Of a stretch of 64,000 nucleotides of DNA, positions 25,536 through 31,050 are shown piece after piece. The stretch's first letter is position 1. Each line of letters opens with the position of its first letter. The DNA is taken from NCBI RefSeq assembly GCF_032191465.1, contig NZ_JAQOUE010000001.1, forward strand, positions 3,255,501 through 3,319,500. Reading direction: 5' to 3'. This DNA comes from Candidatus Nitronereus thalassa. GTDB lineage: Bacteria; Nitrospirota; Nitrospiria; Nitrospirales; UBA8639. The notes beneath the pieces were generated by a model. The model did no database searches, was not told the DNA's origin, and saw only the letters and a program-made list of their open reading frames with translations. The position numbers were made by a program, and so were the translations under genes.

Positions 25536-26786
25536 TCAGTCGGTACCCGTGGCCAACTCCAATTCCTCGTGCAACGTGGTCACGGGGAGGAGTACTTGAA
25601 TGGGTTCCCTGATGGGTTGAAAAAGCGAAAAATTGTGTAAGCGGGTCAACATGGTAAAGGTGACCGGTTGACCTTTGGGAAGGACAATAGCCCCTGATTT
25701 GGCACGAATATCCTCAGCCAAGATCATAGAGGGATTCAGGTCTGCCATGGCAACTTCTTTAGTTTTGAAGGGCAGAGTTTTGCTTGAAAGTGCGCGAAGG
25801 GCATTAAGCACGGCTGGATCATATTTTTTTGCATGTTGACGAAGGGTGTCCAGCGCTTGCTGCTTGGTATGTCCGGTGGATTCCAGCCCATCTAAATCTA
25901 TGGCCACTTTCAGAATACGCGATTCAAAAGGTACGATCTTGGACTCGATCGAATCGGTCGTCTCATCCAACGTATCTTCCTGATATTCAATAATGTCCGC
26001 GACCTTCTCCATTCGGGGAATTTTCCGAATCATTTCAGCGCCAATTGAGGGATATTGATGGTAGAGGAGGGTTTCTTGGTGACTTAATCCTCTTCCGCGT
26101 GCGAGGTTGTGCAACAGTTCTGGAGGAAAAGTAATAAAGCCGATTTGCGAAAGCAACGCGGCAACTTCCAATTTCCAGGTCACGGACAGATTTAATTGCT
26201 TGGCAATGGCTGTGGCATATCGGGTAATGCGGATCGAGCGATTAAAGACCTCGGGATTCATGATCGAAAGCACATGCGTCATGGCTTCGAGTGAACCAAT
26301 CAGGGTTTCTTCCAGCACTTCTTTTTCGCTTCGGATTCGGCGTAAGAGTTCGCGGTCGGCCGCTTCCATCCGTAGCTTTTGTTCGATATTTTGCTGACGA
26401 AGCCGATGTTTTTCTAAGGCATTGAAAATCGTTCGTTGCAATGTCGGTGCGGTTAAAGTGGCTTTTGTTAAGTAATCAGCCATGCCCTCTTTCAAGGCCT
26501 GTACGGCAATGCGCTCATCTCCATGTCCCGTTAACAAGATGACGGGGTTTAAGTAACCAATCTCTTGAATGTCTTTGAATGCTTCCACACCGGTTTTTGC
26601 GCCTAAACGGAAATCGAGAAAGAGCACATCTCCTGGATTGTCCTTGAGTGCAGCCAGGCCTGCATCCAATTGTCGGAAACCTTGAAAATTGACGTGGATA
26701 TTTGGAATTTCCCACAACAACTCTTCTAGCCAACACAGATCGTCGCTATCATCATCAATCGCCTGAATAGTCAAAGTGTGGTTCAT
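25536..26786 (-). CDS. Response regulator with degenerate HD-GYP-like output
   Basis: A 416-residue protein. The receiver domain spans about 5-125 (AIDDDSDD, phospho-acceptor Asp58 in FLDFRLG, LTGHGD, Lys108 in LTKAT). A helical linker leads to an HD-GYP-like domain at about 165-300. Where active enzymes have the HD pair (LLHDIG), this one reads LLSQIGFITFPPELL (211-225). Where they have HHE it reads EYQEDTLD. Metal binding is therefore probably lost. The C-terminal DLNPSMILAEDIRAKSGAIV region is common in HD-type regulators. A GAGG ribosome site is present. It is the last gene of the signalling cluster and probably a c-di-GMP or protein-binding adaptor. Confidence 0.82.
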   Translation of the reverse strand: MNHTLTIQAIDDDSDDLCWLEELLWEIPNIHVNFQGFRQLDAGLAALKDNPGDVLFLDFRLGAKTGVEAFKDIQEIGYLNPVILLTGHGDERIAVQALKEGMADYLTKATLTAPTLQRTIFNALEKHRLRQQNIEQKLRMEAADRELLRRIRSEKEVLEETLIGSLEAMTHVLSIMNPEVFNRSIRITRYATAIAKQLNLSVTWKLEVAALLSQIGFITFPPELLHNLARGRGLSHQETLLYHQYPSIGAEMIRKIPRMEKVADIIEYQEDTLDETTDSIESKIVPFESRILKVAIDLDGLESTGHTKQQALDTLRQHAKKYDPAVLNALRALSSKTLPFKTKEVAMADLNPSMILAEDIRAKSGAIVLPKGQPVTFTMLTRLHNFSLFQPIREPIQVLLPVTTLHEELELATGTD

Positions 26787-26838: not shown

Positions 26839-27453
26839 TCAGTGAAGATTCGCGGGATTGTCACGACGATTAGCTTCTTGCTCCAGCTCTTGGATTGTCT
26901 GTTGAATTTCCCATGCTCGCTCTTCTTGGAGCGCGGCTATATCATTAAGTTGTTGCTTGGTTTGGACGTGATGATTCCACCGCTCTGTGAGGGAGACGGC
27001 AAGCTGGCGTATTTCAATGGGATCGAATGGTTTGCGCAGAATAAGCAGCTTGTCGTGTTGAGTCAGTCGCTTTAGCAAGTGTTCCCAATCATGATCGGAG
27101 TAGGCGGTACAGATCACCATTTGAATGTCAGGATCCACTTGCCAAATATGCTCTATGGTTTCTGCTCCATCCCATCCTGGGGGCATCCGCATATCGACAA
27201 ACGCCATGGCGTAGGGGGTGCCGTTTTGAAGGGCTTCCTGGACCATCGCCAATCCCTGTTGGCCTTGGTCTGCATAGGCAATATGAAATGCCATGGTGAG
27301 TGGAATGGGGACCGATTCTCCAAACAACTCACTTCGAATGCTTTGAAAATCCTTCTGAGGGGTGGGGATTTGAAGGATTTTTCGAATATCCTCGAATATG
27401 GCTGGGTTATCGTCAATGACCAATAGCCGGCGATTGTCTGAGTTCAAGGTCAT
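26839..27453 (-). CDS. Response regulator, stand-alone receiver with coiled tail
   Basis: A 204-residue protein. The receiver domain covers about 8-150: VIDDNPAIFEDI, phospho-acceptor Asp in FVDMRMPPGWDG, CTAYSD, and Lys in LRKPFDP. A loop near residues 30-55 is longer than usual, carrying a Gln/Ser/Pro insert. A helical tail (QQLNDIAALQEERAWEIQQT) could be a coiled-coil dimer helix linking to a kinase. The start ATG overlaps the upstream kinase stop as ATGA, so it is the likely phosphotransfer partner of that kinase. Confidence 0.85.
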   Translation of the reverse strand: MTLNSDNRRLLVIDDNPAIFEDIRKILQIPTPQKDFQSIRSELFGESVPIPLTMAFHIAYADQGQQGLAMVQEALQNGTPYAMAFVDMRMPPGWDGAETIEHIWQVDPDIQMVICTAYSDHDWEHLLKRLTQHDKLLILRKPFDPIEIRQLAVSLTERWNHHVQTKQQLNDIAALQEERAWEIQQTIQELEQEANRRDNPANLH

Positions 27454-28736
27454 GAAATGAGTGCCTCCACGGGTGTATAGGGAAGGTCGAGAGTAAATCG
27501 TGCCCCTTGTCCTTCCCCGACGCTAAAAGCCTGAAGTGATCCTTGGAGGGATTGGGCCGCCAAGGCGCTGCTATGAAGTCCTAATCCCTGCCCTTCCTGT
27601 TTAGTAGAAAATCCTTGGGTGAAAATCTTGGTAAGCAGCTGAGGTTTGATGCCCACCCCCGTATCTTGAACGATGAGAAGGACTCGATTGGGTGTGCGCG
27701 TTCCGTCGATTGTGAGACTCAGGCAATGGGAAATTCCTGGTTTTGCCATCATGGAATGTTTCGCATTCCGAATGAGATTCACCAATATTTGGAGAATCTG
27801 ATGTTTGTCAGACATGATGGGGGGGGCATCGGCAAAATCTCGTACAATGGATACCTGGTGTTGTGGAAGTGTGCCAAAATTGATGGTCAGTGCCTGCTCC
27901 ATCAATTCTGAAAGAATGACGGGTTCTTTTTGGTTTGTCCCAACCGTGTTTGCCTGTTGGGCTTGAACAATGTGTTTGAGATGGTCGAGATTTTTTGTCA
28001 GGGCTTGGATCTCTTCCAGCATCGTTTGATGCTGTTTGGCCACTTGTTTATCTAATTCGCTTAAATACGAGGGGATCAGCTGACCTTTAGTGTCTTGTGT
28101 GAAAAAGTGTCCTAAATCCTGTTGATGGGCTCGGATCATGGAGGCAATTCTTCCAATGTCATTGGTATAGGAATTTTTCAGCAGGGTGGTGATTTGAGTG
28201 GCAGAAACGTTGATGCTATTGAGAACATTTCCCACATTGTGCAAGACATTGACCGCAACCTCTGCCCTTCCTAATTGACGGGAGGTTTCTAAAAGCTGAT
28301 CCATGAGATCTTCACGTTCTTTTTCAGCTTTGTGGCGTTCTAGGGCATAACGAATCGATCGTTCTAATCCTGAGGCCAGCAGCTCTCCTTTGACCAGGTA
28401 ATCTTCGGCTCCACTTTCCCCCGCACGGACATCGACATGATGATCATCTTGCCCCGTTAACAAAATGCAAGGGGTAGAACATTGTATGGTTCGAACATAT
28501 TTTACGAGGTCAAGGCCCGTGTGGTTGCCCAAGCGGTAATCGAAAAGAAATATCGCGTACCCATGTGTTTGAATGCGGTGTGTTGCCTCGTCATAGTCCG
28601 AAACCCAATCAAGGTGAAATGTCGTTTCCTCTACTTGAGAAAGTATGTTTTTGATGATGTGATAATCATCTTCATCATCTTCAACCAGTAATATTTCAAG
28701 GGGAGATTGTGTTATGAGTGAGGTATTCGTCATCAT
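27450..28736 (-). CDS. Receiver-histidine kinase hybrid (REC first)
   Basis: About 428 residues from ATG 28736; TTG 28739 and ATG 28733 are alternatives. An N-terminal receiver domain (about 14-135: LVEDDEDDYHI, FLFDYRLGNHTG, DYLVKG) is followed by a kinase core. The phospho-His is probably in AVNVLHNVGNVLNSINVS, the HNVGN type. The ATP domain has ILVNLIRNAKHSMM (N box), VQDTGVGIKP and GQGLGLHSSALAAQSL (G boxes). There is no TM segment, so it is a soluble kinase. It is translationally coupled to the receiver gene at 26839-27453. The upstream stretch of 336 bases has its own promoter space. Confidence 0.88.
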   Translation of the reverse strand: MMTNTSLITQSPLEILLVEDDEDDYHIIKNILSQVEETTFHLDWVSDYDEATHRIQTHGYAIFLFDYRLGNHTGLDLVKYVRTIQCSTPCILLTGQDDHHVDVRAGESGAEDYLVKGELLASGLERSIRYALERHKAEKEREDLMDQLLETSRQLGRAEVAVNVLHNVGNVLNSINVSATQITTLLKNSYTNDIGRIASMIRAHQQDLGHFFTQDTKGQLIPSYLSELDKQVAKQHQTMLEEIQALTKNLDHLKHIVQAQQANTVGTNQKEPVILSELMEQALTINFGTLPQHQVSIVRDFADAPPIMSDKHQILQILVNLIRNAKHSMMAKPGISHCLSLTIDGTRTPNRVLLIVQDTGVGIKPQLLTKIFTQGFSTKQEGQGLGLHSSALAAQSLQGSLQAFSVGEGQGARFTLDLPYTPVEALIS

Positions 28737-29075
28737 CAATGCGGGGCTCCAGGTGTGGGGATGGCCAGGGACAACAATGAGCCAGGTGAATACTGTGGCC
28801 TGGCATGAGTTGCGTATGACCGTCTATCGATCTTTGTCCACTTCCTCTTGTGTTTCTCTACTCTAGTAATCGGTGTATCATTTGCGTACTTAAGTCCTCT
28901 CTGCTTTGCGAATGGGCGATATTCCTTCGTATTTATGAAGGTTTCACAGGGTTTTGCCCATAAAGATAAAGAATGGGGCTGAACAATAGAGCAAAACAAG
29001 TAACAACCAGAGGTTTGAACAATACGATTTTGAAGACTTATTGGGTAAAGAAATTTTTTGGAAGGGTTGTATGAT
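28737..29075. other. Non-coding stretch between signalling operons
   Basis: About 340 bases between two minus-strand signalling genes. On the minus strand it contains a small hairpin (CCTTC-N8-GAAGG) and segments vaguely like the GEMM core, but not the conserved set, so I make no RNA call. It probably holds the promoter of the kinase gene at 27450-28736. Confidence 0.35.
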
Positions 29076-29633
29076 TTATGGCTGGGGAAGTTGGACGAGG
29101 TGTAACCAGTAATAATCCAACGCCAACAGGGTGTCTCGATATCCCTCGAATGACGTGGGTTTGGTCATGAACGCATTTGCGCCTTCTTGGTAGGCGCGAA
29201 AAATTTCTTCACTGTTCCTCGTGGTAGTGAACACGACAATGGGGATGGTGTAGAGGTCTTGATCCTTTTTCAGAATCCCAAGGACTTCATGCCCATTTTT
29301 TTTCGGCATATTGAGGTCCAATAAAATAATGCCCGGACGAGGGGCGGATTGAGCGTGAGCAAATTCTCCATAATGGTACAGATAATTTAAGACAGCTTGG
29401 CCATCATGGATAAACCTCAGTTCATTCCCGGATTGAATTTCTTCCCAAGCCTCCTGGGCGAGTAAGCAATCATCTGAGTCATCATCTACCATCAGAATGA
29501 TTCGGCTTTGGTGGTTCCCCTGAGCAATTGACACGGGACCACTTTTGGTGGAATCCGGTGGAAAGGCGGCAAGCGGGGAGGGGACTGCTTCTTCTTCCCT
29601 AGTGCTGGCTAGAGAGGTGTCTGAATGGATCAA
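29076..29633 (-). CDS. Rcp1-like stand-alone response regulator
   Basis: A 185-residue protein starting with TTG, supported by AAGGAG seven bases upstream. After a flexible 45-residue N-terminus, the receiver domain spans about 45-180: MVDDDSDDCLLAQEAWEE, ELRFIHDGQAVLNYLYHYGE, the phospho-acceptor in LLDLNMPKKNG, TTTRNSEE and MTKPTSFEGY. The YLYxxG insert and PRPGIILLDLNMPKKNGxE are hallmarks of the cyanobacterial Rcp1 subgroup, which pairs with phytochrome-type kinases. It is the third of three tandem paralogues lying after the riboswitch. Confidence 0.9.
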   Translation of the reverse strand: MIHSDTSLASTREEEAVPSPLAAFPPDSTKSGPVSIAQGNHQSRIILMVDDDSDDCLLAQEAWEEIQSGNELRFIHDGQAVLNYLYHYGEFAHAQSAPRPGIILLDLNMPKKNGHEVLGILKKDQDLYTIPIVVFTTTRNSEEIFRAYQEGANAFMTKPTSFEGYRDTLLALDYYWLHLVQLPQP

Positions 29634-29647
29634 TCTGTGGCTCCTTA

Positions 29648-30154
29648 CTAGTGAGACAAAGAGTCCCAGGCAGGTTTATCGCTGCCATAGGGAAGTTCTA
29701 CCATGTTGGTCCAATATTGGCTTAGGGCACCCACGATGGTATGAAATTCTTGGGCCGAACGTGGTTTAGTCATGCAGGCATTGGCTCCCAAGGCATAGGT
29801 TCGACAGGTATCTTCTTCATCAATCGAGGTGGTCATGACTACTACTGGAATATGGCGAAAGATTTCATGATCCCGGATTTCCTTTAAGGCCTGATGGCCA
29901 TTTTTTCTCGGCATGTTCAAGTCAAGCAAAATCATACCTGGAAGGGGAAAATCTTCAGTATCAGAAAACTTTCCACGACGATGGAGATAGTCGAGAAGTT
30001 CTTCGCCATCTCGAACAAACTTTAGGGCATGAGGACATCCATATTCTTCCCAGGCATCCTGAGTGAGTAAACAATCGTCTGGGTCGTCATCGGCCATCAG
30101 AATCGTTCTGGAAGGATTCTCTATGGACATCGTTGCTAAATGTGACATTTTCAT
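29648..30154 (-). CDS. Rcp1-like stand-alone response regulator
   Basis: About 168 residues from the ATG at 30154, with GGGAG eight bases upstream; a frame 20 codons longer is unlikely because it would overlap the upstream gene. Receiver domain: MADDDPDDCLLTQDAWEE, ELLDYLHRRGK, LLDLNMPRKNGHQ with the phospho-acceptor Asp, MTTSIDEEDT and MTKPRSAQEF. It is a single-domain protein with no output module. It lies 14 bases upstream of the next paralogue and 11 bases downstream of the previous one, so the three are one operon. Confidence 0.9.
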   Translation of the reverse strand: MKMSHLATMSIENPSRTILMADDDPDDCLLTQDAWEEYGCPHALKFVRDGEELLDYLHRRGKFSDTEDFPLPGMILLDLNMPRKNGHQALKEIRDHEIFRHIPVVVMTTSIDEEDTCRTYALGANACMTKPRSAQEFHTIVGALSQYWTNMVELPYGSDKPAWDSLSH

Positions 30155-30165
30155 ACTGGTTCTCC

Positions 30166-30630
30166 CTAGTGATTCGCGGAAATAAGGGTCCGTTGATTTT
30201 TTAAGGCAGACCAAGCTTGCCGCACATCCCGCATCACCCGAAGATATTCATGAAAAGTGGAAGGCTTCGTGACAAAGCCATAAGCTCCTAAAGCATAAGC
30301 TTCTGAAGCTTCTTTGGGTGTTTTAGAAGTACTGAGAACAATAACAGGAATATCTTGAAGGGTCGGATCGGCTTTGATGTCCGCGAGAGATTCCAAGCCG
30401 CTTTTTTTGGGCATGGACAAATCTAGTAAGATAAGTCCTGGGCGGGGAGCGGTCTCGGGAGAGGAATAACGATTTTGTTGATACAAATAATCGATTAATT
30501 CGTTCCCGTCTTGCACAAACCGAAGCTCATTGCCATGCCCTGTTTCTTCCCAAGCTTCCATGGCGATGAGGCAATCATCAGTATCGTCATCAGCAATTAA
30601 TACCGGTTCCAGAAGTTGTAGCGACGGCAT
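30166..30630 (-). CDS. Rcp1-like stand-alone response regulator, first after riboswitch
   Basis: A 154-residue single receiver domain: LIADDDTDDCLIAMEAWEET, ELIDYLYQQNRY, LLDLSMPKKSGLES with the phospho-acceptor Asp, LSTSKTPKEA and VTKPSTFHEY. The start ATG has AAGGAG about eight bases upstream. The gene starts 31 bases after the intrinsic terminator and about 80 bases after the c-di-GMP-I aptamer, so its transcription, and that of the two paralogues behind it, should depend on c-di-GMP. Confidence 0.9.
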   Translation of the reverse strand: MPSLQLLEPVLIADDDTDDCLIAMEAWEETGHGNELRFVQDGNELIDYLYQQNRYSSPETAPRPGLILLDLSMPKKSGLESLADIKADPTLQDIPVIVLSTSKTPKEASEAYALGAYGFVTKPSTFHEYLRVMRDVRQAWSALKNQRTLISANH

Positions 30631-30660: not shown

Positions 30661-30694
30661 AAAAAAAACGCCCATCCTGTAAAAGGAATGGGCG
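30661..30694 (-). terminator. Intrinsic terminator, expression platform of riboswitch
   Basis: On the minus strand CGCCCAT and CCT pair with AGG and ATGGGCG (one bulged base), followed directly by eight T. It lies 15 bases after the c-di-GMP aptamer and 31 bases before the receiver gene start, the standard arrangement for riboswitch-controlled termination. Confidence 0.88.
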
Positions 30695-30709
30695 CAACAA
30701 TGCCAACAG

Positions 30710-30808
30710 CGGTCATCGTGGTAGCCGGGCGTACCCTGGGAAACGAGTTTCCCTTATCAGGTCCCTTGGCTTTGCGTCCCATCCTCTCGGGTGGTTTGCC
30801 TTTGTCAC
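30710..30808 (-). promoter_or_regulatory. Cyclic di-GMP-I riboswitch (GEMM-I aptamer)
   Basis: On the minus strand the conserved core appears in order. GGCAAACC (30800-30793) is followed by a stem capped with a GAGA (GNRA) loop, then GGGACGCAAAGCC (30780-30768). Next come GGGACCTGATAA, which resembles the tetraloop receptor, a GGGAAA/TTTCCC hairpin, and CCCGGCTACC (30729-30720). This is the class I c-di-GMP aptamer, which binds one c-di-GMP through the GNRA-receptor-closed three-helix junction. It controls three tandem receiver genes. Whether c-di-GMP turns the genes on or off cannot be read reliably. Ends are approximate. Confidence 0.92.
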
Positions 30809-31050
30809 CTTGTAGAAGGATGTATCGGTGTCCTCGATAGAAACTTAACCTGAAACCGGACGCTGATAGGTTTTTTTCGTGGATAGAATCCTAAAGATTA
30901 CACTTGAGGCTTCAAAAGGGTAGTTGCCTATGGATGAGTGAAAGAACCGCGGATTGATCTAGTGGCACGAAGTTTTGAGACACTTGCATACCCGTGGCAA
31001 TGGAATGGAGTAGGGTGTGTTGGAAAGTAGACTGGTGGCCGCCTTGTTAA

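Follow-up and report, generated by a model that had tools for sequence, protein, structure and literature searches.

In Candidatus Nitronereus thalassa, a receiver/kinase operon of the flagellar regulon that is silenced by c-di-GMP at its leader is, overall, the best explanation for a riboswitch locus that we analysed within a 64,000-nucleotide stretch of DNA (the window), and we regard this explanation as probable. The aptamer, the terminator, the potential of the two to pair, the promoter motif and their conservation among relatives were all computed. The features are as follows, in the order of transcription.

30822..30848, minus strand: sigma-28 (FliA) type promoter, TTAAGTTT-N11-ACCGATAC, matching 13/16 consensus positions, 11 nt before the aptamer
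30717..30810, minus strand: c-di-GMP-I (GEMM-I) riboswitch aptamer (RF01051, 52.4 bits, cut-off 35)
30772..30788, minus strand: aptamer P2 3' strand and core, GAGAGGATGGGACGCAA, the 5' strand of the predicted antiterminator (from duplex and cotranscriptional folding)
30685..30697, minus strand: switching strand, TTGCGCCCATTCC, able to form the antiterminator with the aptamer core or, alternatively, the terminator stem with that hairpin's 3' arm
30661..30694, minus strand: intrinsic terminator, 9-bp stem and T8, hairpin CGCCCATTCC-TTTTACA-GGATGGGCG
30166..30630, minus strand: receiver-only protein 1, 154 aa, Rcp1-like (PF00072, 61.2 bits; RcpA/RcpB/Rcp1 structures)
29648..30214, minus strand: receiver-only protein 2, overlapping gene 1 (PF00072, 62.2 bits; mechanical start)
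29076..29633, minus strand: receiver-only protein 3 (PF00072, 55.5 bits)
27450..28739, minus strand: REC-HATPase_c protein, 429 aa (PF00072 and PF02518, no HisKA match)
26839..27453, minus strand: receiver domain protein, 204 aa (PF00072, 42.3 bits)
25536..26786, minus strand: REC-HD_5 (HD-GYP-like) protein (PF13487, 101.5 bits)

The operon behind the leader

The preliminary description had proposed a c-di-GMP-I aptamer, a terminator with eight T and three tandem Rcp1-like receivers, and each of these is real: the aptamer exceeds the covariance-model cut-off, the terminator lies at 30694-30661, and the receivers carry PF00072 as their sole domain, well above cut-off (55-62 bits). All three receivers keep the acidic pair (DD), the phospho-acceptor Asp, the Thr/Ser and the Lys, and have no output domain. 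Receiver 1 is preceded by an AAGGAG ribosome-binding site at 30644-30639 (minus strand), and the true start of receiver 2 is probably further in than 30214. The closest solved structures of receiver 1 include the phytochrome response regulators Rcp1, RcpA and RcpB, likewise single-domain receivers; the window operon differs from these systems in having no linked phytochrome gene and in that the partners are apparently REC-kinases without membrane or PHY domains. Possible roles for the receivers are as a phosphate sink, as members of a relay or as direct partners of the motor or of other proteins.

The earlier view that output-less receivers are what the riboswitch controls fits the first three genes and falls short of the whole, since the REC-HATPase, the further receiver and the REC-HD_5 protein follow them in the window. 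A gap of ~340 nt separates receiver 3 from the REC-HATPase gene and may contain another promoter. No strong terminator was found within 30660-25536 on the minus strand, so that readthrough to 25536, and with it the transcript extent that we infer along the operon, is possible. REC-kinase genes also lie upstream of the leader on the minus strand. Direct control of a c-di-GMP phosphodiesterase by the riboswitch was considered and rejected: the REC-HD_5 protein has SQ in place of HD and lacks the GYP motif, and is therefore probably no phosphodiesterase. The HD is also gone in its orthologues at L067 and L068.

Conservation across Nitrospirales

The host genome (4.0 Mb, two contigs) has seven c-di-GMP-I aptamers, one of which is in the window. 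We surveyed 150 such aptamers with their downstream genes from this genome and 78 relatives, and found the linkage of riboswitch to receivers conserved at 20 sites in 15 Nitrospirales genomes of four genera (G000, G002, G004, G006, G013, G014, G016, G017, G019, G022, G031, G042, G045, G046 and G048). These sites comprise 19 and a weaker one, L091 (45.9 bits); an automatic match, L102, was removed because its receiver is 4.6 kb downstream. The downstream genes in relatives include a CheY-sized REC. In genus g9 the order is riboswitch, REC, REC-HisKA-HATPase, REC, REC-HATPase, and in genus g5 the operon is in two halves, each with its own riboswitch. A recognisable terminator is missing at six receiver sites (L069, L164, L080, L086, L185 and L091). 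Since relatives keep the same arrangement, the module appears tied to the decision between swimming and settling.

A DNA pattern of the aptamer core and the platform TTGCGCC, which occurs once in the window and in 0 of 100 shuffles, was also scanned against 84,980 species genomes. It returned only Nitrospirota-type MAGs (Nitrospirales OFTM, NPIRA and UBA8639, and one labelled Nitrospinota that matches relative G002) and one Bradyrhizobium contig; the latter was taken as chance, its locus having no riboswitch match.

A sigma-28 type promoter motif abuts the aptamer

Promoters were scored against the sigma-28 consensus TAAAGTTT-N10-12-GCCGATAA, which is a general one and not derived from these genomes, the criterion being at least 11/16 matches at 7-12 nt before the aptamer. 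Each of the 19 receiver sites scored reached it, with 11-15 matches of 16 and 8-11 nt between the -10 box and the aptamer. The corresponding figures were 0/28 for the other terminator-bearing riboswitches, 5/101 for the leaders without terminators and 0.6% for random places. Because related leaders share ancestry, the 19 sites do not count as independent. These data run against the suggestion in the preliminary description that control of receivers departs from the motility theme usual for GEMM-I elements. A vegetative sigma-70 promoter was sought near the aptamer and not found.

A strict sigma-28 pattern gave 9 matches genome-wide and 9 for the reversed control, that is, no enrichment, and the claim for sigma-28 consequently rests on placement and conservation and not on abundance. 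We therefore turned to flagellin genes as a control. A similar motif lies ~100-160 nt upstream of the start codon in all 22 flagellin genes of these genomes, with scores of 12-15 against a shuffle mean of 9.9; that of the window's own genome is the weakest. The motif suggests that a sigma-28 type polymerase would start transcription here. Some chance, albeit a small one, remains with the alternative in which the riboswitch is real and the promoter is not of the sigma-28 type, its motif being fortuitous or read by the other FliA/WhiG paralogue or another sigma factor. The result with the reversed control fits that alternative, as does the presence of two FliA/WhiG-family sigma factors above cut-off in the window's genome; against it stand the fixed place of the motif at every scored receiver site, its lack in all 28 sibling leaders and the similar motif upstream of flagellin genes.

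Two other sets of leaders carry related elements. In genus g5 the riboswitches L136, L143, L153, L157, L181 and L190 have a strong sigma-28 type box (14/16), here 25-52 nt upstream of the aptamer. In family f3, at L081-L085, the aptamer lies 5' of short rod-type flagellar proteins (Flg_bb_rod/Flg_bbr_C, tested in one) and no terminator was found; L082 also shows a box of the sigma-28 type, 11 nt ahead of its aptamer.

The expected ligand is c-di-GMP

A cmscan of the whole window placed the RF01051 match at 30810-30717 on the minus strand (52.4 bits, E 2.2e-07; gathering score 35), spanning the full model (1-87) with two non-standard pairs. The letters of the ligand pocket, our choice of which we take partly from known structures, are canonical in the window: GGCAAACC (first G of GGC) and GGGACGCAAAGCC (GCAAAG core). 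Given the G at the specificity position and the canonical core, c-di-GMP is the ligand to be expected. At this position (the first G of GGC) the 19 receiver-operon aptamers have G in 12, A in 5 (L073, L075, L078, L086 and L185) and C in 2 (L079 and L080), which raises the possibility of an altered ligand preference in some of the orthologues.

Binding of another cyclic dinucleotide such as 3',3'-cGAMP by the window aptamer is improbable in our estimate. The A and C replacements among the receiver-operon aptamers speak for it, and cGAMP is sensed by GEMM-I variants of Geobacter (PMC9262584). However, in the Clostridium difficile riboswitch Cd1 the replacement of the equivalent G11 by A or C was without large effect (PMC9262584), so that the specificity position alone is weak evidence, and the window itself has the G and the canonical core and passes RF01051 while failing RF03167 (c-di-GMP-I-GGC; 52.3 bits, under the curated cut-off of 59). 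The GGC family belongs to the same clan as that of the window aptamer, and the orthologous leaders L067 and L068 do exceed its cut-off; its consensus has GCGAAG where the window has GCAAAG.

The leader is predicted to be an OFF switch

The terminator starts 23 nt past the aptamer and does not overlap it, and is hence compatible with the folded aptamer. Its 5' arm, the switching strand, can also pair with the aptamer strand GGATGGGACGCAA with one A unpaired, the partner GGATGGG(A)CGCAA lying within the P2 3' strand and core. In minimum free energy (MFE) folds of growing transcripts, which do not include tertiary contacts, ligand or kinetics, the antiterminator appears from nt 126, displacing P2 and reaching up to 10-14 pairs. 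The optimum is the terminator fold at nt 151 (-49.3 kcal/mol) and the antiterminator fold at nt 153 (-50.1 kcal/mol), so that in this model the two folds of the finished leader would be nearly balanced. The antiterminator precedes the terminator in growing-chain folds of 11/14 terminator-bearing receiver-operon leaders and of 23/29 other terminator-bearing leaders; the core antiterminator is absent from those of three g5 receiver sites.

The pairing of the window's switching strand with its own aptamer is worth -19.9 kcal/mol. Among 40 background terminators 2 reach this value, both of them riboswitch terminators that the filter had passed over, and the best of the remaining 38, unrelated ones is -16.1 kcal/mol. 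When strands were swapped between all 43 leaders, own pairs were better than swapped pairs (1/5000 permutations); in the receiver group alone the swap test was not significant (897/5000). A G at core column 34 has C as its platform partner in 24/24 leaders; of the leaders with A there, 7 have U opposite it and the others leave it unpaired. This covariation amounts to few events because the sequences are related. With this limited covariation, the antiterminator is predicted to exclude both the aptamer and the terminator, which would make this a platform whose antiterminator is built out of the conserved aptamer core.

Since the terminator coexists with the folded aptamer and the antiterminator does not, ligand should favour termination. 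By this platform logic we predict a direction of control, on which the preliminary description was silent: the window leader would be an OFF switch, terminating at high c-di-GMP. The converse, an ON switch in which c-di-GMP binding blocks termination and raises receiver expression, appears very unlikely. ON-type c-di-GMP and cGAMP riboswitches with terminators are known, as in the pilM riboswitch (PMC9262584), but there aptamer and terminator are mutually exclusive, whereas in the window it is the antiterminator strand that overlaps the aptamer and the terminator begins clear of it. Moreover, the related terminator-bearing leaders are mostly 5' of a FliA-type sigma gene, where repression by c-di-GMP is expected. 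Slightly less likely still is a decayed element that no longer switches and whose terminator sets a constant low expression, as the loss of a recognisable terminator in some relatives might suggest, given the full aptamer, strong terminator and balanced alternative folds of the window and an architecture common to four genera.

Our preferred reading, the c-di-GMP OFF leader, can be cast as a mechanism. A sigma-28 (FliA-type) RNA polymerase would start just before the aptamer. At low c-di-GMP, the unliganded P2 3' strand and core would pair with the terminator 5' arm as it emerges, blocking the terminator and allowing the operon to be transcribed; at high c-di-GMP, the bound aptamer would retain its P2 3' strand and core, the terminator would form and transcription would end ahead of the first receiver gene. 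The Rcp1-like receivers, REC-HATPase and REC-HD proteins would accordingly be made when late flagellar genes are on and c-di-GMP is low. The operon is most likely one of the late flagellar class, with c-di-GMP acting on its leader to silence it.

Similar leaders precede sigma factor genes

In a second group of leaders (28-29) the terminator follows 22-34 nt after the aptamer. The first gene, where identified, is a FliA/WhiG-type sigma factor; the positions match the TIGR02479 list in most genomes, with some members individually confirmed as sigma genes. The host genome has one such leader (L005/L199, G000:C1:733118-733024, minus strand), with riboswitch and terminator before its second FliA/WhiG-family sigma gene (TIGR02479, 205 bits; cut-off 189.6), which is separate from the canonical FliA (269 bits, C1:1326767). 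Most relatives in the family that have flagella share this arrangement.

The L005 sigma gene has an OFF leader of this kind too, so the operon may come under c-di-GMP control twice. We tentatively suggest, at somewhat less than even confidence, that c-di-GMP gates this phosphorelay operon of the flagellar class in two successive steps, first at a FliA/WhiG-type sigma gene with its OFF riboswitch and then at the operon's own OFF leader, which begins the transcripts from the sigma-28 type promoter; the receivers would form a motility-stage module that is turned off on settling. If the riboswitch-bearing paralogue or the canonical FliA reads the promoter, and c-di-GMP lowers that sigma factor, the circuit would be a coherent feed-forward loop. 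The family f1 genomes of genus g4 and G003 have no FliA above cut-off and also no c-di-GMP-I riboswitch, a co-absence that is weak because nearly all of these genomes are of one genus.

Relation to known riboswitches

The OFF control of flagellar operons that include a sigma-28 gene by c-di-GMP-I riboswitches is already known. In C. difficile, Cd1 (Cdi-1-3) at the flgB operon reduces the expression of flagellar genes, among them sigD, which encodes sigma-28 (PMC6366702; PMC9262584), and its aptamer and terminator coexist and compete with an antiterminator (PMC9262584). The window leader resembles Cd1 in its c-di-GMP-I aptamer, its terminator and its predicted OFF logic. Cd1, however, sits at an early flagellar operon, whereas the window leader is found between a promoter of the sigma-28 type and receiver/kinase genes; and the antiterminator of Cd1 uses G86/C87 with G147/C148, that of the window the P2 3' strand and core. 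Equally, a c-di-GMP riboswitch on a two-component/phosphorelay operon is known from cmrRST of C. difficile (Cdi-2-2; PMC6837544; PMC8844915). There, in contrast to the predicted OFF control in the window, expression rises with c-di-GMP; the riboswitch belongs to class II and not class I, the regulators bind DNA where the window proteins are receiver-only, and a sigma-A promoter is described instead of a sigma-28 motif.

The literature that we searched, from which subscription papers were mostly absent, yielded no direct precedent on GEMM-I control of receivers, on FliA with riboswitches or on Nitrospira riboswitches, and no study of c-di-GMP riboswitches in Nitrospirales. The novelty appears to lie in the combination, conserved in Nitrospirales, of a receiver-rich phosphorelay operon with a c-di-GMP-I OFF leader directly behind a promoter of the sigma-28 type. 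If true, this would assign Rcp1-like receivers that stand alone, often without a known role, to a flagellar programme repressed by c-di-GMP; in this order, the link between second messenger and two-component signalling would also gain a layer of sigma factor and riboswitch.

The host genome also contains a second c-di-GMP-I riboswitch in the region G000:C1:1565500-1574500 (L198, G000:C1:1572773-1572671, minus strand; 51.5 bits), followed by a gene for a BrxC/BrxD-like ATPase (PF10923 in an orthologue), a histidine kinase and an Rcp1-like receiver. This gene order is repeated in L087 and, within contig reach, in L106.
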